A DNA stretch of 64,000 nt from an uncultured Clostridia bacterium (lineage in GTDB: Bacteria; Bacillota; Clostridia; Oscillospirales; Ruminococcaceae). A model generated the notes under the pieces. The model made no database searches, was not told the DNA's origin, and was given only the letters and a program-made list of their open reading frames with translations. Where the stretch lies: the NCBI GenBank assembly GCA_947166275.1, contig CAMVDP010000006.1:1-64000 (forward strand), read 5' to 3'. Positions 16,815 to 46,146 of this stretch are shown here, piece by piece. A program made the translations under genes and the position numbers. The stretch's first letter is position 1; each line of letters opens with the position of its first letter.

Positions 16815-19475
16815 ATGAAAAACAGCAGGATAAATACAGAGATATTCTCAATATCTCACATGATAACACTCATCACAATGACAATATTCTCGATCGTGCT
16901 GATAATACTGAACCGTATCATGAACTGGGAGCTCTGGATGATACCGGTCATCGTGGCAGGCACTGCGGCGTGCGTATTCGTACACATTTCCGGCAGGCTG
17001 TCGCCGCGCACGAGGATATACTTATACGGAGGCTTCCTGATACTCGAATCCTTCTATTATGCAGTCAACATAAGCACGGTCTATGACAGTACCGCGATAG
17101 TCGTTATCATGGCATTCCTGTTTTCCATAACAGGCGAGCGCGGGCTCGTGATCGCGGGAGTCTTCGGCGGTATCGCGGGAATGGCGCTTCATCTTATCAA
17201 CAAGCATATATCCAATGGCGCAAACGCGGCGGGCGGCACGGGACTCATCTTTCAGCCTGAGTACATCATACGCGTTATCTGGCATTTCTTCCTGATACTC
17301 CTTGCCGCGGTCATTGCCGACAAAATATCCTCCGCGTGGAAGAACACCGAAGACAAGTATCAGAAAAGGATAGACGATATACTCAAGGAGAACGAAAGCG
17401 CCAACAATTTCCTCGCAAACGTCTCACATGAGATAAGAACGCCCATCAATGCCGTGCTCGGTCTCTCGGCTATCATGAAAAAGGAAGATATCCCCGAGCA
17501 GGTAAGGACAAATATGTACGCCATCACCGAGGCAGGCCACCGTATCGCGGATCAGATCGAAAACATCATGGATTACACCGAGATCGACACTAAAACGCTG
17601 TCCCTGACCCGCGAAACATACATGATAAACTCGATCATCAACGACCTTATCACCCAGCTCCGCTTCACCCGCGAAAACGGGCTCGACCTGGTGATCGACC
17701 TTGACCCGGCCGTCCCTTCGGAGCTTGTCGGTGACGGCGCGAAGCTCAAAAAGATACTCTGGCATCTTATCTCAAACGGCTTCAAGTTCACACACAGCGG
17801 CGGTGTCAATGTCAACATCACCTGCAAAAAAAGAGAGTACGGCGTCAACCTTATATTTGAAGTGACCGATACAGGCGTAGGCATGACTGAAGACGAACTC
17901 GCGCACGTTTACGACAAGTTTTATCAGTCTGATTCCGGACGCTCGCGTGCCGCCGGAGGCCTCGGACTCGGTATTCCGATCGTCAACGGGTTCGTGCGGT
18001 CAATGGGCGGATTTCTGTATATGGACAGCACGCCCGGCCAGGGCACTCTCGTGCGTGTCAGCATTCCCCAGGAAGTAGTCGACAGCTCGCCGTGCATCTC
18101 GGTAGGCAACAAGGAAAACATACACGCGGCAGGCTTCCTGTCTTTCATGACCACGAAGGATTCAAGAGTAAGAGACTTCTATCTGCAGATGATCGGACAT
18201 CTCGTCAAGGGACTCGATGTCACATTCACCCGCGCAAAATCTGTCGATGAACTCAAAGAACTAATGGCATCGACATACAACGTAACGCACCTCTTCGTCG
18301 GTACCGGTGAATACCTGAACAACAAGGAATACATTGACGAGCTCACCTCAAAGACCAATGTCGTGCTCGTCGAGGACAAAGATTACAACGGCACGACCGG
18401 TGACAATATAGCACTGCTGAAAAAGCCGTTCTGCGGCGCGCAGGCTGCGAACTTCCTCAATTACTCGCGTATCGAAGAAAACACCGAATACGCGCATATA
18501 ACCTGCCCGGGCGTAACGGCTCTGGTAGTCGATGACGAGCCGATGAATCTTCTCGTGGCGCGCGGTATATTCGAGTCATACGGCATGACGGTCAGCACTG
18601 TGACCAGCGGTCCGGATGCTATTGACGCGTGCTCCAACAATGACTTCGATATCATATTCATGGATCACATGATGCCCGGAATGGACGGCGTGGAGACTAT
18701 GAAGCGCCTGCGCGCCAACGCCGCTAAAGAAAGGAAAGAGCTCTGCATCGTGGCGCTCACAGCGAACGCGGCAAGCTCCGCCAAGGAAATGTTCATGTCG
18801 GAAGGCTTTGACGGCTTCATACCGAAGCCAATAGAGCTGATTGACCTCGAACGTGTGCTGAAGCATGTGCTGCCAAAGTCCGCGATAGCGTACGTCAATG
18901 ATACCGATGAAAAAGCTCCGGATGCACACGAAGCATCCGCAGCTCCGGCAGAGCATAAAGCGCCGGAAGTTACCAGAGCACCCGCATCACCTTCCGCACA
19001 CGCTGTTTCGGGTGACAAATACAGCACGCTGCGCGCCTGCGGTATTGATATCAATACGGGTCTGCACTACTGCCAGAACGAGATCTTCTATGACGAGATG
19101 CTCGAAGAGTACGCAAAAGGCTATAAAGACAAGCTCAAAGAGATCGACACTTATTACGAAAGCTCCGACTGGAAGAACTACCGCATCCGAGTTCACGCGA
19201 TAAAGAGCACATCGAAGATGATAGGAGCGCTGGAGCTTTCCGATACGGCAAAAGCGCTTGAAGCCGCTGCGAAAGACCTTGACATCGATACTATCAGAAA
19301 CGGTCACCCGGACTTCATGGTAATGTACCGGACGCTGCTTGAGACTATCATGGCATTCACCGGAGTACCGCCGGAGTCGGATCCCGATACGGACGACGGA
19401 CCTATTGAGTTCGATCCTGTCAGCGGTGACGACGGCGTGGTATTTGAATTTCAACCGGGAGGTGATGATGCGTGA
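16815..19475 (+). CDS. Membrane hybrid sensor histidine kinase with receiver and HPt domains
   Basis: 886 residues. Five or six helices fill residues 15-170 with little extracytoplasmic mass, so the signal is probably membrane-borne or intracellular. HisKA follows with phospho-acceptor His205 (ANVSHEIRTPINA), then the ATPase with its N-box near 322, DTGVGM and GGLGLGIPIV. A divergent, probably inactive receiver-like region (about 430-550) leads to a true receiver with Asp617 in FMDHMMPGMDG and Lys in PKPIE. An acidic/Pro linker and an HPt domain with His794 (RVHAIKSTSKMIGA) close the protein, so a complete His-Asp-His relay is encoded. The stop overlaps the start of the next kinase by 4 bp (GTGA). 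Confidence 0.93.
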   Translation: MKNSRINTEIFSISHMITLITMTIFSIVLIILNRIMNWELWMIPVIVAGTAACVFVHISGRLSPRTRIYLYGGFLILESFYYAVNISTVYDSTAIVVIMAFLFSITGERGLVIAGVFGGIAGMALHLINKHISNGANAAGGTGLIFQPEYIIRVIWHFFLILLAAVIADKISSAWKNTEDKYQKRIDDILKENESANNFLANVSHEIRTPINAVLGLSAIMKKEDIPEQVRTNMYAITEAGHRIADQIENIMDYTEIDTKTLSLTRETYMINSIINDLITQLRFTRENGLDLVIDLDPAVPSELVGDGAKLKKILWHLISNGFKFTHSGGVNVNITCKKREYGVNLIFEVTDTGVGMTEDELAHVYDKFYQSDSGRSRAAGGLGLGIPIVNGFVRSMGGFLYMDSTPGQGTLVRVSIPQEVVDSSPCISVGNKENIHAAGFLSFMTTKDSRVRDFYLQMIGHLVKGLDVTFTRAKSVDELKELMASTYNVTHLFVGTGEYLNNKEYIDELTSKTNVVLVEDKDYNGTTGDNIALLKKPFCGAQAANFLNYSRIEENTEYAHITCPGVTALVVDDEPMNLLVARGIFESYGMTVSTVTSGPDAIDACSNNDFDIIFMDHMMPGMDGVETMKRLRANAAKERKELCIVALTANAASSAKEMFMSEGFDGFIPKPIELIDLERVLKHVLPKSAIAYVNDTDEKAPDAHEASAAPAEHKAPEVTRAPASPSAHAVSGDKYSTLRACGIDINTGLHYCQNEIFYDEMLEEYAKGYKDKLKEIDTYYESSDWKNYRIRVHAIKSTSKMIGALELSDTAKALEAAAKDLDIDTIRNGHPDFMVMYRTLLETIMAFTGVPPESDPDTDDGPIEFDPVSGDDGVVFEFQPGGDDA

Positions 19476-22138
19476 ATAAGCTGATCGAAGCCATACGCGA
19501 CGAAAAAAGAACGATGCACGAACGCATGTTCCTGCTTATCGCGGTCGTCGCGCTCGGAGTCATACTTACAGATATCATAATAGGTCTGTTCATCGGTGAG
19601 AGCGTTGAGGATATAATACTGCTTGTTGTGGGATTTATAGTATTCCTCGCGCTCGTCGTCACTGGTGTGAAGTTAAGAAAACTCGACCTTGTCTCCACTA
19701 TAATTTCGCTGCTTGTAATACTTCTTCTGCTGCCGCTCGTGTTCTTCACAGGAGGCGGAGTATTCGGCGGTGCCCCCATCTGGTTCGTGTTCTCGACGCT
19801 GTTCGTGAGCATGATAGTCTACGGTATCAAGAAGTACGTGCTGCTCGTTCTTGAGGGTCTGGTCGCAACGGCTTGCTTCATAATATCGTTCATATACCCG
19901 AACACCGTCATCGAACATGACCGCGGTACCGCATATATCGACTCGCTCGTTTCGGTAGTATTCGTAAGCGCGGTGCTCACGCTTATGGTAAGCTTCGAGA
20001 TACGAATGCTGCGCAGAGAGAAAGAGCAATCCGAAGCGAAGAGCCGCGAGATAGAGGAGCTCAGCCGCTCACAGAACCGCTTCTTCTCAAGCATGAGCCA
20101 CGAGATACGCACACCTATAAACACGATAATCGGTCTCAACGAGATGATACTCCGCGAGGACACATCCGAGGAGGTAGCGGACGACGCACGGAACATCCAG
20201 TCCGCGTCAAAGCTGTTGCTGTCACTTATCAACGACATCCTCGATATGTCGAAAATGGAGTCCGGCAAAATGGAGCTCGTCCCCGTTATATACGATGTCG
20301 GAAAAATGCTGTCGGATATCGTTGACATGACATGGGTCAGGGCAAAGGAAAAGGGTCTCGATTTCACTCTTGAAGTCGACCCCACAATGCCCGCGCAGCT
20401 TCTTTGCGATGAAGTTCGTATCAAGCAGATAATCATAAACCTTCTCGGCAACGCGATAAAATACACCAAGACAGGAAGTGTGAACCTCTCGGTACACTGC
20501 CGCAGAACAAGTACGAATAAGGTGCTCGTCACCTACTCGGTCGAGGATACCGGTATAGGCATACGAAAGGAAAACATTCCATACCTTTTTGATGCGTTCA
20601 GGCGAGTCGATGAAAAGAAAAACCGCTACATCGAAGGCACCGGACTCGGTCTTTCGATAGTGAAGCAGCTTGTAGACCTTCTCGGCGGAGAAATAACAGT
20701 CACAAGTATTTACACCCAGGGCTCAACTTTCGTGGTCAGCATCGAGCAGGAGACCGTTGACGAGCGTACCATAGGCGCGTTCAGCATCGAAGCGTTCCGT
20801 AAGAGCTCTGCCGGCAAACACCACAGCGACAGCTTCGTCGCGCCTGACGCGAAAGTGCTTATCGTTGATGACAATTCAGCCAATCTGCTCGTGGCGGAGA
20901 AGCTGCTGCGCGGCACACGCATAAAGACCGAGCGCGCAGAAAGCGGCGATGCCTGCCTCAAGCTCACGCTCCAGACGCACTACGACGCGATACTCATGGA
21001 TCACCTCATGCCGGGTATGGACGGCATCGAATGCCTGCACGCGATACGCTCGCAGCTGGGCGGAATGTGCCTTGACACCCCGGTGATAGTACTTACTGCC
21101 AACGCAGGCAGCGATAATCAGGCGCTTTATCGCCGCGAGGGATTTGACGGATATCTGATGAAGCCTATCGAGCCTGATGAGCTGGAATCCGCACTGCTCG
21201 CCGTGCTTCCGTCCGCGCTGGTGGAAGTCAAGGACGGGTCCTCCGGCAAATATGTTGCGTCAGGAGCCGTGCATGAGTCCGTAAACAAAGTGCCGCTTCT
21301 GATAACCACCGACAGCGTCTCCGACCTGCCGAAGGAGCTTACGTCATCAAAGAACATTGTCGTGTTCCCGTACAAAGTGTATACTGACGAGGGAGAGTTC
21401 GATGACGGACTTGAAACGGACGGCGATGTGCTGATACGCTATATGAAGGACGAGTCGTTCCACGCACGCAGCGACTGTCCGAGCGTAGCGGAGTACGAAC
21501 AGTTTTTCGCGGAACAGCTCTCACGCGCTCGCCACATCATCCATATCGCAATGGCAAAGCGCTCCAGCGGCGGTTTCGCCAACGCAAGCGAGGCTGCGCT
21601 CGCCTTCTACAACGTCAGCGTCGTGGATTCCGGTCACCTTTCAAGCGGCATGGGACTTATGGCGCTCGCCGCAAGATCGAACATCGATGACGAACAGTTC
21701 ATCTCCCCCGACGAGCTTCGCGTAAAGCTCGAAAGTTTGCGCGACCATATCCAGACAAGCTTCATTCTCGAAAACACCGAATACCTGTACCGCAGCGGAA
21801 GACTATCAGAGAATATCAGCAAGTTCTGTACAGCTTTCATGATACACCCCGTTATCGCCATGAAAAACAGCGCGATGTCTGTCGATAAGCTATATTTCGG
21901 CAGCCTTGACCGCGCACGAAGCAAATATATACGCAACGCTCTCCGCTCACCCGAGACCATAGACACCGGGCTGCTTTTCATAACCTATGTAGGCATGAGC
22001 ACCAATGCGATCGAACAAGTGAAGGAAGAGGTCGCAAAATACGTGAAATTTGATAAGGTATACTTACAGAAGGCTTCTCCTGCCGTGTCCGCCAACTGTG
22101 GAGCCGGCACATTCGGTCTTCTCTTCAAACGGAAATAA
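19472..22138 (+). CDS. Hybrid histidine kinase-receiver fused to a DegV/FakB-like fatty-acid-binding domain
   Basis: 888 residues from a GTG overlapping the preceding stop. Five membrane helices (about 20-180) and a short coiled coil precede HisKA with His210 (SMSHEIRTPINT) and an ATPase (NAIKYTKTG, DTGIGI, GTGLGLSIV). A receiver with Asp510 (LMDHLMPGMDG) and Lys564 follows. From about 608 to the end runs a near-complete DegV fold: TTDSVSDLP, AKRSSGGFANAS, VVDSGHLSSGMG, NTEYLYRSGRLS, and a C-terminal GAGTFGLLF. DegV/FakB proteins bind a fatty acid and present it to the kinase FakA. The fusion suggests that fatty-acid occupancy feeds into or out of this phosphorelay; that part is inference. 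Confidence 0.9.
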   Translation: MNKLIEAIRDEKRTMHERMFLLIAVVALGVILTDIIIGLFIGESVEDIILLVVGFIVFLALVVTGVKLRKLDLVSTIISLLVILLLLPLVFFTGGGVFGGAPIWFVFSTLFVSMIVYGIKKYVLLVLEGLVATACFIISFIYPNTVIEHDRGTAYIDSLVSVVFVSAVLTLMVSFEIRMLRREKEQSEAKSREIEELSRSQNRFFSSMSHEIRTPINTIIGLNEMILREDTSEEVADDARNIQSASKLLLSLINDILDMSKMESGKMELVPVIYDVGKMLSDIVDMTWVRAKEKGLDFTLEVDPTMPAQLLCDEVRIKQIIINLLGNAIKYTKTGSVNLSVHCRRTSTNKVLVTYSVEDTGIGIRKENIPYLFDAFRRVDEKKNRYIEGTGLGLSIVKQLVDLLGGEITVTSIYTQGSTFVVSIEQETVDERTIGAFSIEAFRKSSAGKHHSDSFVAPDAKVLIVDDNSANLLVAEKLLRGTRIKTERAESGDACLKLTLQTHYDAILMDHLMPGMDGIECLHAIRSQLGGMCLDTPVIVLTANAGSDNQALYRREGFDGYLMKPIEPDELESALLAVLPSALVEVKDGSSGKYVASGAVHESVNKVPLLITTDSVSDLPKELTSSKNIVVFPYKVYTDEGEFDDGLETDGDVLIRYMKDESFHARSDCPSVAEYEQFFAEQLSRARHIIHIAMAKRSSGGFANASEAALAFYNVSVVDSGHLSSGMGLMALAARSNIDDEQFISPDELRVKLESLRDHIQTSFILENTEYLYRSGRLSENISKFCTAFMIHPVIAMKNSAMSVDKLYFGSLDRARSKYIRNALRSPETIDTGLLFITYVGMSTNAIEQVKEEVAKYVKFDKVYLQKASPAVSANCGAGTFGLLFKRK

Positions 22139-22141
22139 GCC

Positions 22142-24055
22142 ATGGATAAGATCATTTATTTTGACATCTGCTCGGTACCTATCTACATAATCGTGATATG
22201 TACCACCCTCTATCGCAAAATGACCAAGGGAAGATCAAACAAGCTTTTCCTCGCGGTCATTGTTCTGGCGCTTGTCGCCGCACTGTGCGAGATACTTGAA
22301 CGTATCGCCTATATTGACCCGGTGCTAAACAGCAACGACATACTCTGGGTGAAGATCTGCGAGTATGTTTACTTCGCAACGCGGAACTGCGTAAATCTGA
22401 TGTACACGCTGTTCGTCATTTCCATGACCAAGACCTGGTACCGTATACGCCCGTTCTGGCTGAAATCACTGATATGCCTTCCGTATATCGGTATTCTCGT
22501 CATGCTCGCGATCAACGAGAGCACCTCTGCGGTATTCAAGGTATTGCCGGATATAGGCTACACCCGCGGCGAGAGCATAATGATAGTGTATGCGCTCGCG
22601 TTCTCGTACATGATCTTCGGTACGCTGTACCTGATACTTAACAAAAAAACCATGGACACCGGCGAATGGCTCGCTCTGATGTCCATGTACGTGATAAACC
22701 TTGCTGTAGTACTGCTGCAGCTCATACTGTCCAAATACCTTATGGAATCCTTCGGTACATCGCTTACGATACTGTTCGTCGTGAGCTATGTGCTGCGCCC
22801 GGAAAAGCGCGTGGACATCAATACCGGATTGCCGTGTTACAGAGCTTTCTGCGAAGAGATAGGCAAGATAAAAGCCACCGGGCATAGTATCACTATCGTT
22901 ATCACAAGTATCACCAACGCATCGGAGATAAGTCTTTACCTGAAAGACTCCTACTATGACTACATACACATGATCGACGCGCAGATACGCTCTATCGCAA
23001 GGAGAGAGCGCGTGTCACACGCGGTGTTTTTCGAGCATCCGGGAAACTTCTACGTGATCCTCGATGACAGCAGGTACAATCCGGTTCAGATCATACCTGA
23101 GATCCGTGACCGTGTCCGCAGAGAAAGCAATGAAGTGTTCGAAAAAGGCATAGTGCCCGACGCACGTATAGTTACAGTCGACTTCCCCGGGGAGATAAGC
23201 AGCATCGACGAACTGCTGCGCTTCGGTCACACGTTCGTGCGCTTCACCGACTACAGCAGAGTATTCAACCGCGCGTCAGCGATAATAAACAAACCCGCTT
23301 ATCTCACAGAAGCCCACATCGACGAGATCCTCACGCGCGCCTTAAGCTCCGGCGGGCTCAAGGTGATGTACCGTCCGATAGTATCCGTGGCAGCCGGTAA
23401 GGCTTCCGCAGTGGATACCGTGATATCTGTCACCGACGATGTGTACGGCAGCATTGACCCGGAAATACTGATCAATGCCGCTGAAGAGAGTGGTGCGATC
23501 GTAAAGCTGGAAAACCGCATACTCGACGACGCATTTTCATTCGCGGGCAGCGAAGAGTTCACCTCGCTCGGATATTCACGCATCCACATCCGCCTGTCCG
23601 TAATGCGCTGCATGCAGATGAACCTGACCGACACGATCTGGCAGTTCAGGGACAAGTACCGCGTTTCCCCAGAAAGGATAGCTTTCGAGATAAGAGAGTC
23701 CTCGTACGAGAACATAAGCAGCATATTCAGCGAGAACCTGAAAAAACTGTCCGCCCAGGGCTACATGATCGTCCTGGACGGATTTGGCAGAGGTTATTCA
23801 AATATGCGACACCTGCTCGATATGCCGATAAAAGCGGTGAAGCTCGACAGCGATCTTGTCACATCGTCATCATCAAAGAGCGGTCGTGCCATGCTCAACG
23901 GTATCATTCAGATGCTCCGCGCTATACCGCTTGAGGTGATCGTGGTGGATGCCGACGACAAAGAGACCGCCGATATGCTTTGCGGCATGGGATGCGACAT
24001 GTTGTCGGGACGTTACTACGCAGACCCCGTCGAGCGCGCTGCGCTTATAATCTGA
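22142..24055 (+). CDS. Seven-helix membrane protein with degenerate GGDEF and EAL domains
   Basis: 637 residues, starting three bases after the DegV-fusion kinase. Residues 1-220 carry about seven helices. A GGDEF-like region (about 222-350, from VDINTGLPCYRAF) has lost the active-site loop, reading HPGNFYVIL. The EAL region (about 385-637) keeps the fold but not the catalytic set: the EAL triplet is DTV, the DDFG motif reads LDGFGRGYSN, AEGVE is replaced by VDADDKE, and the final Q-G motif is LSGRYY. It is therefore probably a c-di-GMP receptor or a signalling scaffold rather than an enzyme. Cotranscription with two hybrid kinases points to one pathway. Its 3' end overlaps the convergent pseudo-receiver gene by 11 bp. 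Confidence 0.82.
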   Translation: MDKIIYFDICSVPIYIIVICTTLYRKMTKGRSNKLFLAVIVLALVAALCEILERIAYIDPVLNSNDILWVKICEYVYFATRNCVNLMYTLFVISMTKTWYRIRPFWLKSLICLPYIGILVMLAINESTSAVFKVLPDIGYTRGESIMIVYALAFSYMIFGTLYLILNKKTMDTGEWLALMSMYVINLAVVLLQLILSKYLMESFGTSLTILFVVSYVLRPEKRVDINTGLPCYRAFCEEIGKIKATGHSITIVITSITNASEISLYLKDSYYDYIHMIDAQIRSIARRERVSHAVFFEHPGNFYVILDDSRYNPVQIIPEIRDRVRRESNEVFEKGIVPDARIVTVDFPGEISSIDELLRFGHTFVRFTDYSRVFNRASAIINKPAYLTEAHIDEILTRALSSGGLKVMYRPIVSVAAGKASAVDTVISVTDDVYGSIDPEILINAAEESGAIVKLENRILDDAFSFAGSEEFTSLGYSRIHIRLSVMRCMQMNLTDTIWQFRDKYRVSPERIAFEIRESSYENISSIFSENLKKLSAQGYMIVLDGFGRGYSNMRHLLDMPIKAVKLDSDLVTSSSSKSGRAMLNGIIQMLRAIPLEVIVVDADDKETADMLCGMGCDMLSGRYYADPVERAALII

Positions 24056-33411: not shown

Positions 33412-34434
33412 TTATTTCAGCTTCGAAATGATCTCTTCAGCTATCTTGTCAAGCGGCAGCTGCTTCATAACGGCACCGTTCTTGAATGCCACAGCAGGCA
33501 TACCGTAGACCACGCAGGTCGCTTCATCCTGTCCTATGGTATACGCACCGCGCTTGCGCATCTTGAGCAGACCCTCCGCTCCGTCGGCACCCATACCCGT
33601 AAGTATCGCGCCTATCGCGTGAGGTCCCGCGGATTCGGAAACGCTCTCAAACAGGACATCAACAGACGGACAGTGTCCCGACACCTTTGCGCCGGGCTTG
33701 CTGGTCACATAGTACCCTCGCGCGTCCTTCTGAAGACGCAGATGGTATCCGCCCGCGCCAAGTATGATAAGTCCCGGACGCAGTCTGTCGCCGTCGGCAG
33801 CCTCTTTGCAACTCATCTTGCATATTTTGTCAAGCCTTTCGGCGTACATCTGTGTAAAGCCTGCCGGCATGTGCTGAACGATCACCACCGGTGGGGAATT
33901 CTCGGGAAGGCGCTTTACTACCTCGATAAGTGCATCTGTGCCTCCCGTGCTTGCGCCGAGCGCTATGACAGCGTTCGACCTGCCGCCGCTCGGAAGATTG
34001 AGTGCGGGCTGCGGCACGGATATCGGTCTGACCGGTGCCTGACGCACCTTTGCATTTGCCGAGAACCTGATGACCGAAGCGAGTCTCTCACAGAAAGCCG
34101 ACATCTCCGACGAATTGTGGACGAGCGGTTTCTTCATAAATTCCACCGCTCCGGCACTTATCGCGTCGAAGGCACGCGTAGGCGATGAGGTTATAACAAT
34201 GAACGGCACGCGCTTTTTAGGCAGGAACGACTTGATAAAATCTATACCATTCATGCCGGGCATCTCAACATCCATCGTCACCACATCAGGGTTGAGACGC
34301 ATTATCTTTTCTTCCGCCTCTGCTGCATTTGGTGCTGTATCGATAATATCGATGTCATCTATCTTGGCGAACTCATTCTTTATTACAGTCCGAAATAGTA
34401 TTGAATCGTCGACTGTAAGAACTCTGATTGCCAT
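33412..34434 (-). CDS. cheB: Chemotaxis protein-glutamate methylesterase/deamidase CheB
   Basis: 340 residues. N-terminal receiver with acidic pair VDDS and phospho-acceptor Asp55 (TMDVEMPGMNG), a linker to about 150, then the methylesterase domain with the Ser-His-Asp triad: Ser162 in LGASTGGTDA, His188 in VQHMPAGFT, Asp284 in GMGADGAEGL. It removes methyl groups from chemoreceptors (and deamidates Gln) when phosphorylated by CheA, giving adaptation. Last gene of the cheA-cheW-cheR-cheB operon. Confidence 0.97.
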   Translation of the reverse strand: MAIRVLTVDDSILFRTVIKNEFAKIDDIDIIDTAPNAAEAEEKIMRLNPDVVTMDVEMPGMNGIDFIKSFLPKKRVPFIVITSSPTRAFDAISAGAVEFMKKPLVHNSSEMSAFCERLASVIRFSANAKVRQAPVRPISVPQPALNLPSGGRSNAVIALGASTGGTDALIEVVKRLPENSPPVVIVQHMPAGFTQMYAERLDKICKMSCKEAADGDRLRPGLIILGAGGYHLRLQKDARGYYVTSKPGAKVSGHCPSVDVLFESVSESAGPHAIGAILTGMGADGAEGLLKMRKRGAYTIGQDEATCVVYGMPAVAFKNGAVMKQLPLDKIAEEIISKLK

Positions 34435-34470
34435 TCGGATACACCCTTTCCTTTATATATATCACTGCCC

Positions 34471-35295
34471 TTACTTCATCGGTTTGCGATAGATAGCGGG
34501 CTTTATGTATTCGTAGTTTGTAGCGTCACGCGGTATGCTCTCCGCATGGCCGATGAACAGATATCCTCCGGGCGCAAGTACGTCATAGAACCTGTTTACG
34601 AGCGCGTTCTTTGTGTCCGAATCAAAGTATATCATGACATTCCGGCAGAATATAAGATCGAACGGATGCTTCTTATACGGGATCGGGTCCATAAGGTTGA
34701 AAACCTTGAACACCACGCGCTTCTTGAGCTCATCGTTCACACGATAGCAGTCGTTCTCAAGAGGTACGAAGTACTTCTTGATGACCTGCGGAGACAGGTT
34801 TTTCATGCTGTCGGCATGATACACGCCCTGTTGAGCCTTCGCGAGCACCTTGCGGGATATGTCGGTAGCGAGTATCTTTGTATCCCAGTTCGCAGCGTCC
34901 ATACCAAAGAACTCCATCATCTCGATCTCGTTGGTATACGGCTCCTCGCCGCTGGAGCACGCCGCACTCCAGATATAGATAGTTTTGGATGCCGCGTTCT
35001 TTTCCTTGATATAGGGCAGGAACGTCTCCTGCATAAACGTGTAATGTTCTGGCTCGCGCCTGAAATAAGTATGGTTGGTCGTAAGCTTGTTGAGGAGATT
35101 AACTACCTCGGTGCCGCTCGAATCTGCGAACACCATATCAAGAAAGGGTTTGTAATCCTTGTAACCGCGCTTGTTCAGCTCGTTTCCAAGTCTTCCCTCA
35201 ATAAGCACACGCTTCTGCGAAAGATTGATACCGTAGTTATCATGAACGAAGGAAACAAGTCTGTTGAACTCGGTGTCATTTATCTTGACCTGCAT
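34471..35295 (-). CDS. cheR: Chemotaxis receptor methyltransferase CheR
   Basis: 274 residues. An N-terminal helical domain (MQVKINDTEFNRLVSFVHDNYGINLSQ) is followed by the SAM-dependent methyltransferase fold: IYIWSAACSSGEEPYTNEIEMMEF, a conserved ATDISRKVLAKAQQGVYH, the LIFCRNVMIYFD motif, and a beta-strand GGYLFIGHAESI. It transfers methyl groups from SAM to receptor glutamates, opposing CheB. It is 36 bases upstream of cheB and 51 downstream of cheW. Confidence 0.96.
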   Translation of the reverse strand: MQVKINDTEFNRLVSFVHDNYGINLSQKRVLIEGRLGNELNKRGYKDYKPFLDMVFADSSGTEVVNLLNKLTTNHTYFRREPEHYTFMQETFLPYIKEKNAASKTIYIWSAACSSGEEPYTNEIEMMEFFGMDAANWDTKILATDISRKVLAKAQQGVYHADSMKNLSPQVIKKYFVPLENDCYRVNDELKKRVVFKVFNLMDPIPYKKHPFDLIFCRNVMIYFDSDTKNALVNRFYDVLAPGGYLFIGHAESIPRDATNYEYIKPAIYRKPMK

Positions 35296-35346
35296 TTTTA
35301 TGCCCCGACCCCGCTTGCGGCAGGGTCTCTCCTTCTTTTATCTGAA

Positions 35347-35868
35347 TTATTCCTCGCTTAAATACATATCCCCGTCATAGATAAGCTTTGCCACATCGAG
35401 GACAAGCTTGATGCCATCCTGCATTTCGAGCAGATATTTTATGAACTTGTTGTCATTTACACCGATACGGTCAGGCGAGTTCGCGATATTCTTCGCGTAT
35501 ACGGGAATTACACCGATGACCTCATCAACGATGACACCGACGGATACTCCGCCCTCCTCGATGATTATGGTATTGGTACGCTCGTTGTATTCCTTTTCCT
35601 CCTTGCCGAAACGGCTTCTCATATCGATGACCGGAACGACCTTGCTTCGTACATTGATTATACCCTTGATATAATAGGGTATGCCGGGAACGACCGTGAT
35701 ATGCGGAACACCTATGATCTCGATGACCGACGGTATCTCGATGCCATAGACCTGATCGCCGATATAGAAGGTCATGACCTTGGTGATCTCGCTTTCCTTC
35801 TCGGCCTTGGCATTAAGGTTCTTCCGCTTCATTTCTTCCTGCTTGGCGAATAATTCTTTTATGTCCAT
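35347..35868 (-). CDS. cheW: Chemotaxis coupling protein CheW
   Basis: 173 residues. After a charged N-terminal 30 residues the CheW fold begins: TFYIGDQVYGIEIPSVIEIIGVPHITVVPGIPYYIKGIINVRSKVVPVIDMRSRFG, with the NVRG-like NVRSKVVPVID receptor-binding strand. It bridges chemoreceptors and CheA in the membrane-proximal array. It lies 15 bases downstream of cheA. No CheV-type receiver is attached. Confidence 0.93.
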   Translation of the reverse strand: MDIKELFAKQEEMKRKNLNAKAEKESEITKVMTFYIGDQVYGIEIPSVIEIIGVPHITVVPGIPYYIKGIINVRSKVVPVIDMRSRFGKEEKEYNERTNTIIIEEGGVSVGVIVDEVIGVIPVYAKNIANSPDRIGVNDNKFIKYLLEMQDGIKLVLDVAKLIYDGDMYLSEE

Positions 35869-35883
35869 TGGTTAAAGCCTCCC

Positions 35884-38007
35884 TTAGCGTGATCCGATAA
35901 GTGTATTGACATCAATGATAAGCGAGATGCTGCCGTCGCCCATGATGGTACAGCCGCTGAGTCCCTGACCCTTGATGTCGTACTGCGAAAGGTACTTCGG
36001 GAACGGCTTTACAACTACCTGCTGCTCACCTATGAGCTTGTCCGCGAACAGGCATATACCTCTGTTCTCCGACTCTATCAGCAGGACTATACCGTCCTCG
36101 ATATCGTTGACCTCGGAGGGAAGTCCGAACTTCTCATTGAGTCTGAGCATCGGATAGCACACTCCGCGGATCATTATCATTTCGCCGCGTCTTGTATCGT
36201 TAAGTATCTGATCGTGCTTTACTATGAAGCTTTCCTTGATAACGGAGATCGGAACCGTGAACTCCGCGTCGCCGACCATTATCTCCATGCCGTCCACGAT
36301 AGCGAGCGTGAGCGGTATCTTGATGATGAACGACGTACCCTCGCCCTTCTTGGACTCAACGAGCAGCGAACCGCCCATCTTGCTGAGGTTGGACTTTACG
36401 ACGTCCATTCCGACGCCTCTTCCGGAGTACTCCGTAACGACTTCGTTCGTGGAGAAGCCCGGGAGCAGTATCATGTTCTGTATCTCTCTCTCGCTGTACT
36501 CGGAAGCGGGCTTTGTGAGAAGTCCGTTGCGCTCTGCCTTTGAGAGCACCTTGTCGGTATCGATGCCGGCACCGTCATCGGCAATGGTGATGATGACTTC
36601 TCCGGAGGAGCTCATAGCCGACAGGGTTATGGTGCCCTTTGCGGGCTTGCCTGCCGCGATACGGTCTTCAACGTTCTCCTCGATACCGTGATCCATAGCG
36701 TTTCTTACGAGGTGCATCAGCGGGTCGTTGAGGTTATCGACGATAGACTTGTCGACCTCGGTGGTGTCTCCCTCTATGACGAGCTCAACGTCCTTGTTGA
36801 GCTTGACCTTCATGTCCCTTACGATACGGTTCATCTTCTGGAACGGACCGGTCAGCGGTACCATTCGGATGGACATTACCGTATCCTGCAGGTCTGCGGT
36901 GAGCTTGCGCAGCTCGCGCGCGGACTTTGTGAAGCTCTCAAGGCGCAGACCTTCAAGCTCGGGGTTGGATATTACCATGGACTCGGTGGTGATTATCTCA
37001 CCGACGATGTCATGCAGCTGGTCGAGCTTCTGGAGGTTTACGCTGATAAGGCTCTGCTTTCCGCCGCCGGACGGAGCAGCGGCAGCCTTTGCGGGCTCTG
37101 CGCTCTTCGGCTTTTCAGCGGGCTTGGCAGCCGCGGGAGCGGGAGCAGCGGCAGCAGCGGCATCAGCAGGTGCTGCGGATGCGCTGGCGGGAGCAGCTGC
37201 CGGAGCGGGTGCGGGTGCTGCGGCGGGAGCGAGTGCTGCCGCAGCGGAATCTATGACCTCGTAGCTCTGAACGTTGAGCGACCCCTCGATAGCGGCGAGC
37301 ACCGCCTTTACATCGGGTGCGCGGAACGAGAGCAGGAAACCGTTGTCTATGATGACATTTGCGGAATCCTGGTTGGACTCGATATCCTCGGGAACGTACT
37401 TTACGATCTCGACATCGTCCACAGACTCCTTAACATTATTAATAAGCATGAATGCGCGGATATTCTCCATTTTGCAGCCGTCCTCGAAGAACACGCGGAC
37501 GGTGGTGCAGTCGGGAGCCGCGTCGATAGCAGCAGCCGCGGGAGCAACACCCGATGCTGCGGCGGCGTCCTGCGCCTCAACCTCGTCAAGCTCACCCTTG
37601 AGCATCTTTGCGCCCTTTTCGAGTTTACCGATCATCTCGGAGAAATCCGTAGGCTGGTAATCGTCATCGTTCTGGATCATGTCGATCTCAGCCTTGAACA
37701 GGTCGGACATCTGGAAAACGAGATCGTACACGAAGCCCACATCGGTCATCTTCTCGGGAGCCTCACGTATGATGAAGAACATGTCTTCTCCCTTGTGCGC
37801 GAGCTTCTGAAGATTCTCGAAGCCCATCATTGCCGACGAACCCTTTACGGTGTGCATGATCCTGAATATCTCATTGATATCCTCTTCCGTAAATTCGTTC
37901 GCCTTCTCAGTTCTCAGAAGTATCTCGTCAAGTTGTTCGAGTAGTGCCGTTGTTTCAAAGATGTAAACATCGACCATTGCTTCCATTCCGGGTTCTACTT
38001 TTGCCAT
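35884..38007 (-). CDS. cheA: Chemotaxis histidine kinase CheA
   Basis: 707 residues with all five regions visible. P1 HPt with His52 (RIMHTVKGSSAMMGF); a long linker that may include a P2 (residues about 130-255); a strongly Ala/Pro-rich spacer (about 258-315); P3 dimerisation (QKLDQLHDIVGEI); P4 ATPase with NAMDHGIEE, DDGAGID, GRGVGMDVV; P5 CheW-like C-terminus. It autophosphorylates and passes phosphate to CheY and CheB. No cheY, cheC or cheD gene is in the window, so these lie elsewhere. First gene of the leftward operon, with its own sigma-A promoter. Confidence 0.97.
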   Translation of the reverse strand: MAKVEPGMEAMVDVYIFETTALLEQLDEILLRTEKANEFTEEDINEIFRIMHTVKGSSAMMGFENLQKLAHKGEDMFFIIREAPEKMTDVGFVYDLVFQMSDLFKAEIDMIQNDDDYQPTDFSEMIGKLEKGAKMLKGELDEVEAQDAAAASGVAPAAAAIDAAPDCTTVRVFFEDGCKMENIRAFMLINNVKESVDDVEIVKYVPEDIESNQDSANVIIDNGFLLSFRAPDVKAVLAAIEGSLNVQSYEVIDSAAAALAPAAAPAPAPAAAPASASAAPADAAAAAAPAPAAAKPAEKPKSAEPAKAAAAPSGGGKQSLISVNLQKLDQLHDIVGEIITTESMVISNPELEGLRLESFTKSARELRKLTADLQDTVMSIRMVPLTGPFQKMNRIVRDMKVKLNKDVELVIEGDTTEVDKSIVDNLNDPLMHLVRNAMDHGIEENVEDRIAAGKPAKGTITLSAMSSSGEVIITIADDGAGIDTDKVLSKAERNGLLTKPASEYSEREIQNMILLPGFSTNEVVTEYSGRGVGMDVVKSNLSKMGGSLLVESKKGEGTSFIIKIPLTLAIVDGMEIMVGDAEFTVPISVIKESFIVKHDQILNDTRRGEMIMIRGVCYPMLRLNEKFGLPSEVNDIEDGIVLLIESENRGICLFADKLIGEQQVVVKPFPKYLSQYDIKGQGLSGCTIMGDGSISLIIDVNTLIGSR

Positions 38008-41733: not shown

Positions 41734-43512
41734 TCACATACTATCGGAAGAAGCGGCCTGTTCAGCGCCGGCGTACCGCGGTATACCGTCAAGATAGATC
41801 ATGCGGCCGAGCTGCATCGCGATGAGTTCTCCGTTCGTGCAGACATCCTCGCCGAGCTCCTCCATGAACAGGCCGTATATCCTGTCGCGGAAGAATACCG
41901 GGAATACCGCGTATCCCCTGCAGTCAGACGAAAGATCACGCCTCCGCAGCATCTCGTTCAGCGGACAGTTCCTGCGCTCATCCGGCATCATGTAAAGCTC
42001 GCCGTTCTTCATAACGCACACAAGGTGTATGTGATCCGGGAACTTCGTAGCCTCTCCGGGAACGAATTTGATCTTCTCATCAAACATATACACCGCGGCG
42101 TTCCTGATACCCAGTGAACCGAATGCCGAGAACAGCCCGCGTATCCCGCAGCCGCCGTCATACGATGTGGTACGTATCAGGAAGTCGTGCATTCTCTCAT
42201 GCACACGAACATTATGCCTGCGCTCCTCTTCGCACTTTTCCGCGATCACAGAGAGAGCTTTGTCCTTCATGCGCAGGAAAAGCCGGTTGATATATGTATT
42301 TATTGTCACAGAGTGCATCTTCTGCGCGTTCGCCATGGCGTTCTGGAGACGGTTTATGCTTTTCAGAAGCTTCTGGGCATCCGTATACTCCATAGCTCCC
42401 TCATTGAAGAAGATATCTATAAGAATACCGATCTCCCCGAACTCCTCAATGCTCAAGTACCGGTCGTTCATCGCTTTAAGCATGCGGGAGATGAATTCGA
42501 AGTACAGTCTGCGCAGATCGACACGTTCTCTGTCCGCGGCTTCGTTACGCCAACGGTAGAAGCAGTCATCGAACATACGGTAAATGAAGTCCCTGTCGAC
42601 CCTTATCAGATCCTGGATCGCGAACTCATACATAACGCAGTCAAACGAGCCGCGCCCGTAAAGCTTCGTGCGTATCAGTTCAGACTCGACTTCCTCGCCG
42701 TTCATCTTCGCGAGCAGCATCTCCACCGCCCGCCTGCCGAGCGTGACGCTCTGTGCGCCCACTGTCGCCAGCGGCGGATTCATGCCGCTCGACATCTTCG
42801 TATTGTCGAAGCCGAACACAAGGATGTCCTTTCCGGGGACAAGCCCGCGCCGGTACATGACCTTGTAGAGCCCGACCGCGACACTGTCGTTGACACAGAA
42901 TATCGCCCTCGTTTCCGGATTGCGGTCGAGCAGCCTTTCCGCTGCCGCCTCGCTGTTCTCACCCATATCGGTGGCTTCAAACATCTTGCTGCGGAACATT
43001 ATACCTTGAGCACGAAGGCTCTCGATGAACGTCTGTTTGCGGACGGTCGCTTCATGGTTATCCTCGCGGCCGCCGAGCATACAAAGCTTTGTTATGCCCT
43101 CAACATTTATGATGTACTCTATAGCCTCGCGGACACCGGTAGTGTTGTCATAGCCCACCGTCGTGAAGCCCTCAAGCACAGAAGACACCACGACTTTAGG
43201 TACACTGCGGAGCCGTCCGTGCATGGTGCGCTCTATCAGCCGCATCTTGGAGCTGTTCATCGAACCCGGGTGTATTATCAGACCGTCGAACCCGAACTGC
43301 TCGCCAAGCTCGTATACAGTATCGTACACCTCGCTGTACATACGCTCATTGGACCGCTCATCATTGTTGTCGGTATATCTTCCTGCGATGACCACGAGCC
43401 GCAGTCCTGAATTCTTCGGCACCGCTTTTTTTACGCTTTCTATAAGCTCTCTCGCGTAATCCGTGGAGATATCCTCGGCAATAAGTCCGATAACTCTTTT
43501 GTTTTCCGACAT
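41734..43512 (-). CDS. LacI/PBP1-type ligand sensor domain fused to a GAF-like domain
   Basis: 592 residues. Residues 1-275 are a type 1 periplasmic-binding-protein fold as in LacI/RbsB repressors: RVIGLIAEDISTDYARELIESVKKA, VSSVLEGFTTVGYDNTTGVREAIEYI, RAIFCVNDSVAVGLYKVMYRRG, GFDNTKMSSGMNPPLATVGAQ. There is neither an N-terminal helix-turn-helix nor a signal peptide, so it senses a cytosolic ligand and is not itself a repressor. A helical region (about 300-440) leads to a GAF-like domain (about 445-580). This architecture usually sits on or next to c-di-GMP enzymes; here the FIST-EAL gene lies three bases upstream in the same operon. Confidence 0.75.
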   Translation of the reverse strand: MSENKRVIGLIAEDISTDYARELIESVKKAVPKNSGLRLVVIAGRYTDNNDERSNERMYSEVYDTVYELGEQFGFDGLIIHPGSMNSSKMRLIERTMHGRLRSVPKVVVSSVLEGFTTVGYDNTTGVREAIEYIINVEGITKLCMLGGREDNHEATVRKQTFIESLRAQGIMFRSKMFEATDMGENSEAAAERLLDRNPETRAIFCVNDSVAVGLYKVMYRRGLVPGKDILVFGFDNTKMSSGMNPPLATVGAQSVTLGRRAVEMLLAKMNGEEVESELIRTKLYGRGSFDCVMYEFAIQDLIRVDRDFIYRMFDDCFYRWRNEAADRERVDLRRLYFEFISRMLKAMNDRYLSIEEFGEIGILIDIFFNEGAMEYTDAQKLLKSINRLQNAMANAQKMHSVTINTYINRLFLRMKDKALSVIAEKCEEERRHNVRVHERMHDFLIRTTSYDGGCGIRGLFSAFGSLGIRNAAVYMFDEKIKFVPGEATKFPDHIHLVCVMKNGELYMMPDERRNCPLNEMLRRRDLSSDCRGYAVFPVFFRDRIYGLFMEELGEDVCTNGELIAMQLGRMIYLDGIPRYAGAEQAASSDSM

Positions 43513-43515
43513 TTT

Positions 43516-46146
43516 TCAGACCTCCGAAGGTTTTTCCGGCATCAGCTCCGGCGAAGGCTTTGAGAACAGATAGCCCTGCGAATAATCGATACCGTATTTC
43601 AGCAGCAATTCCTGTATGTCGCTGTTCTCCACGAATTCCGCTATCACGCTGAATTTGTCCCGGCTCAGCTTCTTCCACAGCGCTATCAGCGCTGTCAGAT
43701 TGGCGGACTGTTCGTCGGTGCAGCAATTCCGCACGATCGACCCGTCTATCTTCAGATAATCACAGTGTATGTTCGCGATATGCTGAAGATTGGAATAGCC
43801 GCTGCCGAAGTCATCTATGGATATCTTCGCTCCGAACGCGTGCACCTGGTCGACAAACATCACGATGTTGTCGTAGTCCTCGATATCCTCGTTTTCAAGT
43901 ATCTCGAACACGAAGTTTTCCGGGTGTCTGACTGTGGACAGCCGCTCATAGATGTACTCAAAGACCTTGCCGCTCGCTATATCACGCACGCTCAGGTTTA
44001 TGCTCACGCTCTTGTCATCGATATTCTCGAACTTATCGAAAACCTTGCTTATCATAGCGAACGAAAGTCCGTCATACAGTGCGCTGTACGACCTTGCCGC
44101 CGGCAGAAAGCTTCCCGGGTAGTATATCTTCCCGTTCTCATCCTCAAGCCTCATAAGCGACTCATAGTGATGTATCGTTCCCGTCTTGTTGTCATGTATT
44201 CCCTGATAGTATGGTATCACCTTGTCATGCGCGAGCGCGTAGTTGATCACGTTTATCATGCGGCTGCGCTCTCTGATGTTGTCACTGTTGAGACGTCCGT
44301 CGCGTGTATCGCTCACATAGAACTGTATATTGCGCTTCATCATCTCTATCTGCGCAGCGCTGTACGAAGCGTCAATGTTTTCCGCCGTGCAGCCGTCTAT
44401 GATGCAGAATATGGGAACTATCGCGATGTGGTCGCTGGAGGCGTAGAACAGCTGTTTCTGCAGCGCCTGCATATCAGCCGCGAAATGCGAGAGCTTGTAC
44501 ATATACGACGGTGCGCCTATGGCTATGTTCCAGCCGCCGAGGTTGTACGCGGTGTAGTGCCGCTCCTTCGCCCAACTTATGCACTTCGATATGTAGCTCT
44601 GGTATGTGAGCTGGACAAGCTGCTCCGGGAACACCGCCTTCATGCTCGCGGTGTCAAAGACGTTTATCATACATATCCTGTCATAGCCGCGAATGCTGAT
44701 ATCCATTATCATCGCGGCACGGTTAGGTATCTCATCGTTCTCCGAGTACAGGAACTTGAGCTCGCAGTCCTTCACGAACTGCTTTATCTTTGCAGCCGCA
44801 GCGGGGTCGTCTGTTTCTTCGAGACTGCGCTCGATGTCCACCAGGAATTTAACGAGCTCACGGTTGTCCGCCGCCAGCGAATCCGTGTGCTGAAGAGCAT
44901 ACGGATTATACTGCTGCACCGTCTTCTCCTCGCCTATTGCCGTCACGATGAGCGTGCAGTTTGCAAACACGTTCCTGCCGTTCACCCATGCTATCTCACC
45001 GTAAGTGAGACACCCGCACATATTTGAATTCTCATACGCCGAGAGCTCCCACTTCGAGCAGTTTGAGTATATCTCCGAGCGCGTGATGCAGGAATACACG
45101 AAAACTGTCTCCGCCTTCTCGAAGTTCTCCACACGCCGGAACAGCGCACGGTTATCCGCGATGATCTTGCGGTCGTATATGAATGCTCTGCGCAGCCGCC
45201 GCCCCGCACGGACATTATGGTTCACGCTTATCATGCTGTGCTTTTCGTTCCTGTCTATATCAGGACACTCCTCATACAGCTCCTCGTTGATAACGCTGTC
45301 CTCGGGGAAAACCTCGCCGATACTAACGTTGTCTTTGACATTGACAAATACCGGGATATCTTCCGCATCGGAATATACGAACGGCAACAGGCTCATAAGC
45401 TCATGGCGCCTCTTCACCTCATCGCCGTGCCACATAATGTATTCATCCGCGGCTTCCCTTCCGTTGACGGAGATTATACAGTTACCGAAAGTCCGGGTTA
45501 TTTCCATATCCTCGCCGATGCTCTGTACGCCCGAAACATAGGAGCAGTAGCAATCGACATCCTTGCCGCCTATAGCAGCCGCGATGATGCCTTTGTTTGA
45601 CCAGCCCTTCTCATTGAACACGAAGTCCGAGTCGATGAACTTGCGGCGGTTCGCTTCCGGAACGCCGGCAACTCCGCCTGTCATGGGCACGCCCGGGAAG
45701 TACGTGTTACAGCGGTCGACGAACTCACATACATTGAGATACTTCGTGGTAACGAACGCGAGCAGCAGCTTCGTATCGCTGTTTATCAGCGCAGACTTCA
45801 CGTTCATGCACACCTCGTCGGGCGACATGGGCCTTCCCGTATCGCTGTCGAAGGTAGGTTGGAGCACAGATCTTACGCTGCCGTTCTTCATCTTCGTCAC
45901 CGATATTATGCACTGATTCGGAGTGAGCCTGCCCTTGCAGATGACCGCGGAAGTGCTTGTGCCGAATATCTGCGCACGCGGCACCAATTCCTTTATCGTG
46001 CGGGCGAGGTCAACAGCCTCCTCCTCAAGGTGTATCGAGGTATGTATGCGAACGAGTACATCTCCCTTCTGTTCGCCCAGCATAAACTGCGACAGTGTTT
46101 CTGCGAGCCTTGCCTTCGAGACGTACTGAAAATTCCATGTATACAT
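43516..46146 (-). CDS. FIST sensor-EAL c-di-GMP phosphodiesterase
   Basis: 876 residues, ATG with GGGAGGG upstream. Residues 1-370 carry FIST-N and FIST-C signal-binding domains (from GDVLVRIHTSIHLEEEAVD through MTGGVAGVPEANR to CGCLTYGEIAWVNGRN). A middle region (about 420-600) is unclear. The EAL domain at about 620-870 is well conserved: YESLMRL in place of EAL (Glu kept), SINLSVRD, FEILENEDIED, IDDFGSGYSNLQH, YLKIDGSIV, AEFVEN and SQGYLFSKP. The metal ligands and general base appear intact, so it should hydrolyse c-di-GMP. Soluble and cytosolic; cotranscribed with the LacI-type sensor gene. Confidence 0.88.
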   Translation of the reverse strand: MYTWNFQYVSKARLAETLSQFMLGEQKGDVLVRIHTSIHLEEEAVDLARTIKELVPRAQIFGTSTSAVICKGRLTPNQCIISVTKMKNGSVRSVLQPTFDSDTGRPMSPDEVCMNVKSALINSDTKLLLAFVTTKYLNVCEFVDRCNTYFPGVPMTGGVAGVPEANRRKFIDSDFVFNEKGWSNKGIIAAAIGGKDVDCYCSYVSGVQSIGEDMEITRTFGNCIISVNGREAADEYIMWHGDEVKRRHELMSLLPFVYSDAEDIPVFVNVKDNVSIGEVFPEDSVINEELYEECPDIDRNEKHSMISVNHNVRAGRRLRRAFIYDRKIIADNRALFRRVENFEKAETVFVYSCITRSEIYSNCSKWELSAYENSNMCGCLTYGEIAWVNGRNVFANCTLIVTAIGEEKTVQQYNPYALQHTDSLAADNRELVKFLVDIERSLEETDDPAAAAKIKQFVKDCELKFLYSENDEIPNRAAMIMDISIRGYDRICMINVFDTASMKAVFPEQLVQLTYQSYISKCISWAKERHYTAYNLGGWNIAIGAPSYMYKLSHFAADMQALQKQLFYASSDHIAIVPIFCIIDGCTAENIDASYSAAQIEMMKRNIQFYVSDTRDGRLNSDNIRERSRMINVINYALAHDKVIPYYQGIHDNKTGTIHHYESLMRLEDENGKIYYPGSFLPAARSYSALYDGLSFAMISKVFDKFENIDDKSVSINLSVRDIASGKVFEYIYERLSTVRHPENFVFEILENEDIEDYDNIVMFVDQVHAFGAKISIDDFGSGYSNLQHIANIHCDYLKIDGSIVRNCCTDEQSANLTALIALWKKLSRDKFSVIAEFVENSDIQELLLKYGIDYSQGYLFSKPSPELMPEKPSEV

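Follow-up and report, generated by a model that had tools for sequence, protein, structure and literature searches.

Proteins of the DegV/FakB family (PF02645, TIGR00762) whose role has been worked out are carriers for fatty acid kinase, according to the accessible parts of two reports (PMC8892158, PMC9136124). As described there, FakB1 holds the carboxylate of the fatty acid in a network of Thr62, Ser95, Ser171 and His270 and uses Arg205 to bind both FakA and the membrane (PMC8892158), while Arg173 is essential for the FakA reaction (PMC9136124). Fatty acids also act as signals in Xanthomonas, where, in the accessible part of PMC5391125, the fatty acid diffusible signal factor (DSF) activates RpfC, a five-helix hybrid kinase with a receiver (REC) and a histidine phosphotransfer (HPt) domain, whose partner RpfG is an HD-GYP phosphodiesterase; that part of the paper places DSF sensing in the N-terminal, membrane-side region of RpfC and describes no DegV domain. 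Hybrid kinases such as BarA and TorS are built on the common HisKA-HATPase_c-REC core. In Bacillus, degV is a neighbour of degSU; a literature search on this arrangement gave no paper.

Here we describe a gene of an uncultured Clostridia bacterium, at 19472..22138 of a 64,000-nucleotide stretch of contig CAMVDP010000006.1 (the window, meaning that whole stretch; its genome is G000), encoding a hybrid histidine kinase (HK) that continues past its receiver into a DegV domain. The fusion shares the whole domain, the fold and the pocket hydroxyl sites with DegV/FakB proteins and differs from them in that its DegV is not free-standing, the carboxylate histidine is replaced by asparagine, and no FakA was found in its own assembly; from BarA and TorS it differs by the DegV after the receiver. 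The likeness to RpfC/RpfG lies in the upstream gene (16815-19475), which encodes a membrane hybrid kinase with five segments, a REC and an HPt; in a receiver-HD-GYP regulator that would degrade cyclic diguanylate (c-di-GMP), present in related cassettes but not in the window's own; and, if our reading of the fusion holds, in a fatty acid as the signal, whereas the fusion operon differs in having two kinases. As an analogy, RpfC/RpfG is the nearest functional picture, alike in its parts list, with no common ancestry implied; RpfF was absent from the Pfam scans of selected neighbours, no search aimed at RpfF having been made.

The fusion gene, its protein and its spread

The features of the fusion gene are as follows.
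19472..22138, + strand: HK-REC-DegV fusion gene, 888 aa, GTG start (Pfam domains)
19514..20041, + strand: membrane region of about six helices, residues 15-190 (AlphaFold2 secondary structure, hydrophobicity)
20072..20749, + strand: kinase core, HisKA and HATPase_c, residues 201-426, phospho-acceptor His210 (Pfam)
20855..21196, + strand: receiver, residues 462-575, with Asp466, Asp510, Thr542 and Lys564 (Pfam)
21290..22135, + strand: DegV/EDD domain, residues 607-888 (Pfam, AlphaFold2, Foldseek)

The open reading frame (ORF) is read through from 19472 to 22138 without an internal stop. Pfam places HisKA at residues 201-265 (2e-18), HATPase_c at 313-426 (8.9e-27), Response_reg at 462-575 (3.3e-21) and DegV (PF02645) at 610-885 (E 3.6e-37, 128.7 bits against a cut-off of 27), covering positions 3-277 of the 280 in the profile, and the NCBIfam model TIGR00762 gives 137.7 bits against its cut-off of 99.7. 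The initial annotation, made from the letters of the DNA, had described a complete kinase core and receiver followed by an end-to-end match to DegV, which Pfam and, for DegV, NCBIfam bear out; the residues it named (His210, Asp510 and Lys564) stand where it had put them, and the four DegV motifs that it quoted all occur in the translation. Among the best 25 of 135 NCBIfam matches, the fusion scores below every equivalog cut-off. The positions expected of a hybrid histidine kinase, namely, the phospho-acceptor His, the N-box Asn, the G-box residues and the receiver Asp, Thr and Lys, are all present, and His210, Asn327, Gly391, Asp466, Asp510, Thr542 and Lys564 are invariant in 80/80 full-length fusions, window included, with Asp359 kept in 79. 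By its sequence, then, the protein belongs with the hybrid histidine kinases and carries a DegV domain in addition.

An AlphaFold2 model calculated from 60 full-length fusion sequences (mean predicted local distance difference test [pLDDT] score of 78.7, predicted template modelling score [pTM] of 0.40) gave the DegV part pLDDT values of 75-94 in ten-residue blocks from residue 611 on and low confidence to the linker at residues 588-604 between receiver and DegV; in view of the pTM, the relative placement of the domains was not read from the model. Secondary structure and hydrophobicity predict no sizeable extracytoplasmic domain within the membrane region. Foldseek recovered the two-subdomain DegV fold with target template modelling (TM) scores of 0.84-0.87 to 1pzx, 2dt8, 4x9x and 3fys, and of 0.80-0.87 across the DegV/FakB crystal structures among the matches listed. 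The PDB matches of this part are DegV/FakB proteins, many titled fatty-acid- or lipid-binding, and it shares its fold with DegV proteins crystallised with fatty acids. Two of the checks proposed in the initial annotation, a search with PF02645 and structure prediction, thus agree on DegV over the C-terminal part. Within the membrane region, we also observed a GGxxGGxPxW-type motif (window 19727-19786, residues ~86-105), over which DUF6057 of Pfam matches weakly, below its cut-off.

The fusion was found well beyond this assembly. The protein was searched against 60 relatives (36 of the same genus, own genome included, and 24 from other families of the order), all of which match it somewhere, as they would any kinase, with whole fusions in a subset. 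Among the matches listed, 12 places, including the window, head the list: a full-length copy 77% identical in an independent same-genus assembly (G007), nine more full-length or nearly full-length copies at 46-52% identity, and one cut by a contig end. One of the nine (G000:C4) comes from the same genome as the window, which thus has two copies. Searched with the Pfam DegV profile, 60 members of the genus gave further fusions in frames of 889-936 codons, some shorter broken ones and four DegV frames of 1569-1576 codons, and two fusions turned up in another family of the order (G361 and G243; loci L178 and L179). For a wider survey, two short patterns, derived by aligning 12 fused DegV domains, were run against a species collection and found 370 relatives; the best 80 of these loci, being selected with patterns that came from fused DegVs and hence no random sample of DegV, comprise 76 HK-REC-DegV and 4 REC-DegV genes. 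Three of the four REC-DegV genes lie at contig ends and the fourth is preceded by a kinase piece in a separate frame. The loci come chiefly from Lachnospiraceae and Ruminococcus-type Clostridia: by label, 57 of the 80 belong to Lachnospiraceae and 13 to Oscillospiraceae, the other 10 being labelled otherwise or not at all. The records with whole fusions include some that are not marked as metagenomes (Ruminococcus sp. YE71; Lachnospiraceae bacterium AC2028, P6A3 and V9D3004). At a strict cut-off of 1e-82, placed at an observed gap in the scores and liable to miss divergent members, fusion-type DegV was detected in 7 of 391 genomes of a class sample and 2 of 398 of a phylum sample, the own genome being one of them in each, and the 398 phylum-sample genomes gave none outside the class.

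The initial annotation had named a frameshift or an assembly join at about 21250-21320 as what would undo its proposal. The intact ORF and the full-length copies in independent assemblies exclude it, and an assembly or frame artefact joining two genes is, with 76 whole fusions in public records, so improbable that we dismiss it. Our literature search, judged by the titles listed, gave no description of a DegV-histidine kinase fusion, in line with the statement in the initial annotation that no characterised example was known.

The DegV pocket and its link to kinases

We mapped the FakB1 sites to FakB2 (4x9x) as Thr61, Ser93, Arg170, Arg202 and His266, whose counterparts in the window are Ser667, Ser699, Arg777, Ser811 (alignment uncertain) and Asn875. 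The carboxylate network of FakB is therefore incomplete in the window, with the hydroxyls of Ser667 and Ser699 kept and the histidine replaced by Asn875, and for this reason the fusion should not be named FakB. The counts that follow refer to nonidentical DegV domains of at least 270 residues, with one short row dropped and five more distant loci added later. The His266 site is Asn in 96 of 97 C-terminal fusions (92/92 before the five loci joined), in 4/4 N-terminal fusions and in 7 of 8 DegVs encoded next to a kinase, the eighth having Thr, whereas it is His in 27/27 stand-alone genus controls. To serve as a control, a locus had to pass a length filter and two motif filters, none of them on the histidine, as 27 of 31 did; the controls come from one genus, mostly as top Pfam matches. 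The only fusion found to keep the FakB-type histidine (THCGPGTFG; L197:582-3263) has Ala and Gly at the pocket hydroxyl sites. At the Thr61 site, 107 of 109 kinase-linked DegVs have Ser or Thr (104/104 before the distant loci joined), and the Arg170 site is Arg in the window, in 82/97 C-terminal and 4/4 N-terminal fusions and in 2/8 kinase-adjacent DegVs. The region of Arg205 was dropped as a discriminator owing to ambiguity in the alignment, where the window has Ser811 and Arg lies one column away in 57/92. Read from these alignments, the pocket hydroxyls are mostly kept, one of the carboxylate ligands is changed in step with the link to a kinase, and the catalytic arginine is not uniform, a pattern that fits a DegV still binding an acyl-type ligand but freed from the FakA reaction.

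The same kind of DegV is joined to kinases in other ways. Four loci (L068:4315-9000, L069, L070 and L071) encode DegV-Cache-HK-REC-HPt proteins of 1554-1561 aa with the DegV at the N terminus (Pfam on one of them), adjoining an HK-REC without HPt. Of the 11 stand-alone DegVs in the fetched set, 8 (L081-L085, L180-L182) come directly after a hybrid kinase, which is no frequency, as these loci were chosen for likeness to fused DegVs or for their neighbourhood. One of them, in the own genome (L084:4426-8461, G000 contig 2), lies right behind a Cache-HK-REC-HPt kinase; three of the four DegV proteins found in that genome are kinase-linked (window, contig 4 and L084). In L195:5169-8606, HK-REC-DegV-HPt form one chain and the upstream kinase shows no HPt, so that the HPt can sit on either of the two kinases, which is what a single shared relay would lead one to expect. 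A quick tree, built on the 101 rows left after thinning and with its long branches flagged, groups the kinase-linked DegVs together beside one stand-alone clade (Shimodaira-Hasegawa-like approximate likelihood ratio test [SH-aLRT] support of 94) and requires a single origin for the C-terminal fusions (SH-aLRT 87).

Neighbouring genes and c-di-GMP

Two genes flank the fusion gene on the same strand.
16815..19475, + strand: upstream hybrid kinase, 886 aa, five hydrophobic segments, HisKA, HATPase_c, REC and C-terminal HPt (Pfam, hydrophobicity)
22142..24055, + strand: downstream membrane protein, 637 aa, C-terminal EAL domain with a degenerate EAL motif region (Pfam, hydrophobicity)

The GTG start of the fusion and the stop of the gene before it share 4 bp (GTGA), and the EAL gene begins 3 bp after the fusion gene, on which grounds 16815-24055 looks like one three-gene transcription unit. 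The Hpt domain of the upstream kinase is narrowly over its Pfam cut-off (25.1 bits against 24.6). At the site in the 22142-24055 protein where we presume an EAL motif would be expected stands AVDTV, and relatives differ at the same spot; given this replacement, the protein may serve as a receptor for c-di-GMP and not as an enzyme.

Directly upstream of the fusion, 65 of the 80 loci have a kinase with HPt and 3 a broken HPt gene, the remainder being other or unlabelled genes (7) or contigs that end at the fusion gene (5). The exact 4-bp overlap recurs in 45/65 loci with an HPt kinase, and in 47/65 an HD-GYP protein lies two genes upstream, so that the usual order is a receiver-HD-GYP regulator, a hybrid kinase with HPt and the DegV kinase. 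In examples scanned with Pfam, the regulator is REC-GGDEF-REC-HD-GYP or REC-HD-GYP and a later gene is REC-GGDEF. Catalytic motifs are present in 64/65 locus entries with an HD-GYP protein and the GGDEF motif in 54/57 GGDEF proteins of the fetched loci (contigs fetched twice included in both counts), and the HPt motif occurs in 111/112 kinases with HPt. The own genome has such a cassette at L025:1142-8865 (G000 contig 4), encoding REC-GGDEF-REC-HD-GYP, HK-REC-HPt and HK-REC-DegV. The next gene downstream of the fusion encodes a family 3 solute-binding protein in 30 of the 80 loci (as it also does in L029:10569-11417, L030, L031 and L079) and an EAL protein in 15; it is unlabelled in 18, on the opposite strand in 10 and something else in 5, with no sequence available in 2. 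Domain labels of neighbours were assigned by phmmer with single query domains, and unlabelled genes may thus hide divergent domains. The survey covered the fetched loci other than L001-L024, L036-L067 and L088-L097; its window-based query missed the DegV in L086 and L087, where Pfam had matched, and nine contigs that had been fetched two times, each under another name, contribute to its count of 117 DegV proteins.

Farther along the window, cheB, cheR, cheW and cheA lie on the - strand at 33412-38007, ~10 kb downstream, and on account of these chemotaxis genes the host is probably motile, motility being a plausible c-di-GMP target. At 41734-46146, a protein with a LacI-like periplasmic-binding domain is paired with a FIST-EAL protein, and the two may form a further unit for sensing c-di-GMP.

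A proposed lipid input and its alternatives

Starting from the domains, catalytic residues and operon partners observed, and from the grouping of the kinase-linked DegVs, we propose that the C-terminal DegV is an intracellular lipid sensor on a membrane-anchored hybrid kinase whose phosphorelay controls c-di-GMP, and give this reading a probability of about 0.5. The ligand would probably be a long-chain fatty acid or a related acyl compound. The relay is suggested by the combination of a fusion without HPt, a neighbour with HPt and a usual third gene with c-di-GMP output, and could run as follows: (i) the DegV, near the membrane, would take an acyl ligand from the membrane or the cytosol, as FakB does; (ii) occupancy may shift the DegV relative to the receiver and kinase core and so alter the kinase/phosphatase balance at His210; (iii) phosphate would pass from His210 to Asp510; (iv) from Asp510 it would move on to the HPt carried by the kinase encoded just upstream, the fusion having none of its own; and (v) the HPt would hand it to the receiver of a protein with HD-GYP and/or GGDEF domains, presumably altering c-di-GMP, with the direction likewise presumptive. 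With no adjacent HD-GYP regulator in the window, step v would use a regulator encoded elsewhere.

The initial annotation had left a choice between a lipid-responsive phosphorelay and a phosphorylation-gated fatty-acid carrier. Of the two, the phosphorelay fits the comparative evidence better and the gated carrier is less favoured, for three reasons: (i) the DegV subfamily is found at the C terminus, at the N terminus or as a separate gene after a hybrid kinase; (ii) of eight catalytic positions checked in 80 fusions, seven are invariant and the eighth is kept in 79, and the FakB carboxylate histidine is replaced; and (iii) a search of the own assembly (81% complete) gave no FakA. Freedom of position, intact kinases and lost carrier features are also what leads us to place the DegV on the input side. 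The HPt and c-di-GMP genes that lend the locus the look of a phosphorelay lie outside 19472-22138 and had gone unnoticed in the initial annotation.

Several observations weigh against a lipid input leading to c-di-GMP. With respect to position, the DegV sits behind the receiver, the usual place of output or HPt domains, and the membrane region, with a conserved motif of its own, could be the sensor. With respect to the ligand, loss of the carboxylate histidine means that something other than a free fatty acid may be bound; 18 of the 97 C-terminal fusions depart from Ser at the Ser93 site (Ser in 79, Thr in 6 of the 18); among the five distant fusions added last, Arg is absent in four; and three of these five (L196, L197 and L199) lack the Ser93 site, L196 and L197 also lacking Ser/Thr at Thr61, so that the pocket is not kept everywhere. 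With respect to the neighbourhood, the window cassette lacks an HD-GYP regulator next to it, and none was seen two genes upstream in 18 of the 65 HPt-kinase loci (8 unlabelled, 3 beyond the fetched sequence and 7 with something else), while the solute-binding protein gene in 30/80 loci hints at a possible second, extracellular input.

Some of these points would be accounted for if the DegV were a scaffold or dimerisation module with a structural lipid and the sensor were the membrane region or, in related operons, the solute-binding protein. The GGxxGGxPxW-type motif, present in 41/98 C-terminal fusions and in 0/119 other kinases of the fetched loci, speaks for this, as do the solute-binding protein genes downstream and the pocket residues missing in some members. 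Most members retain the pocket hydroxyls, however, and the DegV stays attached or adjacent while the input regions of the kinases vary between Cache domains and membrane helices, so that we regard a purely structural DegV as unlikely.

We rate as rather improbable that the DegV is an output, its tethered fatty-acid carrier being opened or closed by receiver phosphorylation to serve FakA or another lipid enzyme. Such coupling is consistent with the even spacing of the two domains, 65 of the 69 fusions measured among the 80 having 48 or 49 residues from the KP motif to TTDS, with the Arg777 that aligns with the catalytic FakB Arg170/173 and is kept in the window and most C-terminal fusions, and with Dak2 (FakA) being present in 55 of 60 same-genus genomes. 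Set against this, FakA was found neither in the own assembly, where there is no Dak2/FakA match, nor in G002, which is 98% complete and carries fusions; given how common FakA is in the genus, its absence from the own assembly is not taken as proof. His266 is replaced, the arginine is lost in 6/8 kinase-adjacent DegVs and in 4/5 of the fusions added last, the N-terminal and separate-gene DegVs follow no receiver, and the labelled operon neighbours are signalling genes, many neighbours being unlabelled. A plain FakB carrier is likewise weakened by the change of His266 to Asn and by the failure to find FakA in the own assembly.

EDD folds include phosphotransfer proteins, and a DegV in the position of an HPt, with H691 invariant and H722 nearly so in 60 aligned full-length fusions, could in principle be a phosphoryl acceptor in its place. 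A paper of 2005, cited in the accessible part of PMC9136124, names an EDD phosphotransferase domain in its title, but a real HPt on the kinase next door in 65/80 loci and an HPt behind the DegV in the same chain at L195 make this role highly improbable.

To conclude, a DegV domain in a membrane kinase within a conserved gene set suggests an undescribed lipid-sensing route. No paper came up in a literature search on DegV together with c-di-GMP. One and the same DegV subfamily accompanies signalling kinases in three gene arrangements, making a sensory role directly testable. More tentatively, and as a possibility that we hold well short of likely, the fusions may belong to a widespread fatty-acid-to-c-di-GMP phosphorelay of gut and rumen Clostridia, independent of the Gram-negative DSF system RpfC/RpfG, in which a DegV receptor kinase would pass its signal to HD-GYP/GGDEF proteins by way of the HPt on a second kinase. 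We know of no lipid-to-c-di-GMP receptor in these bacterial groups. If true, common gut and rumen bacteria would possess a lipid-to-c-di-GMP route, through which acyl lipids from the diet, from neighbours or of their own making would set motility or attachment.

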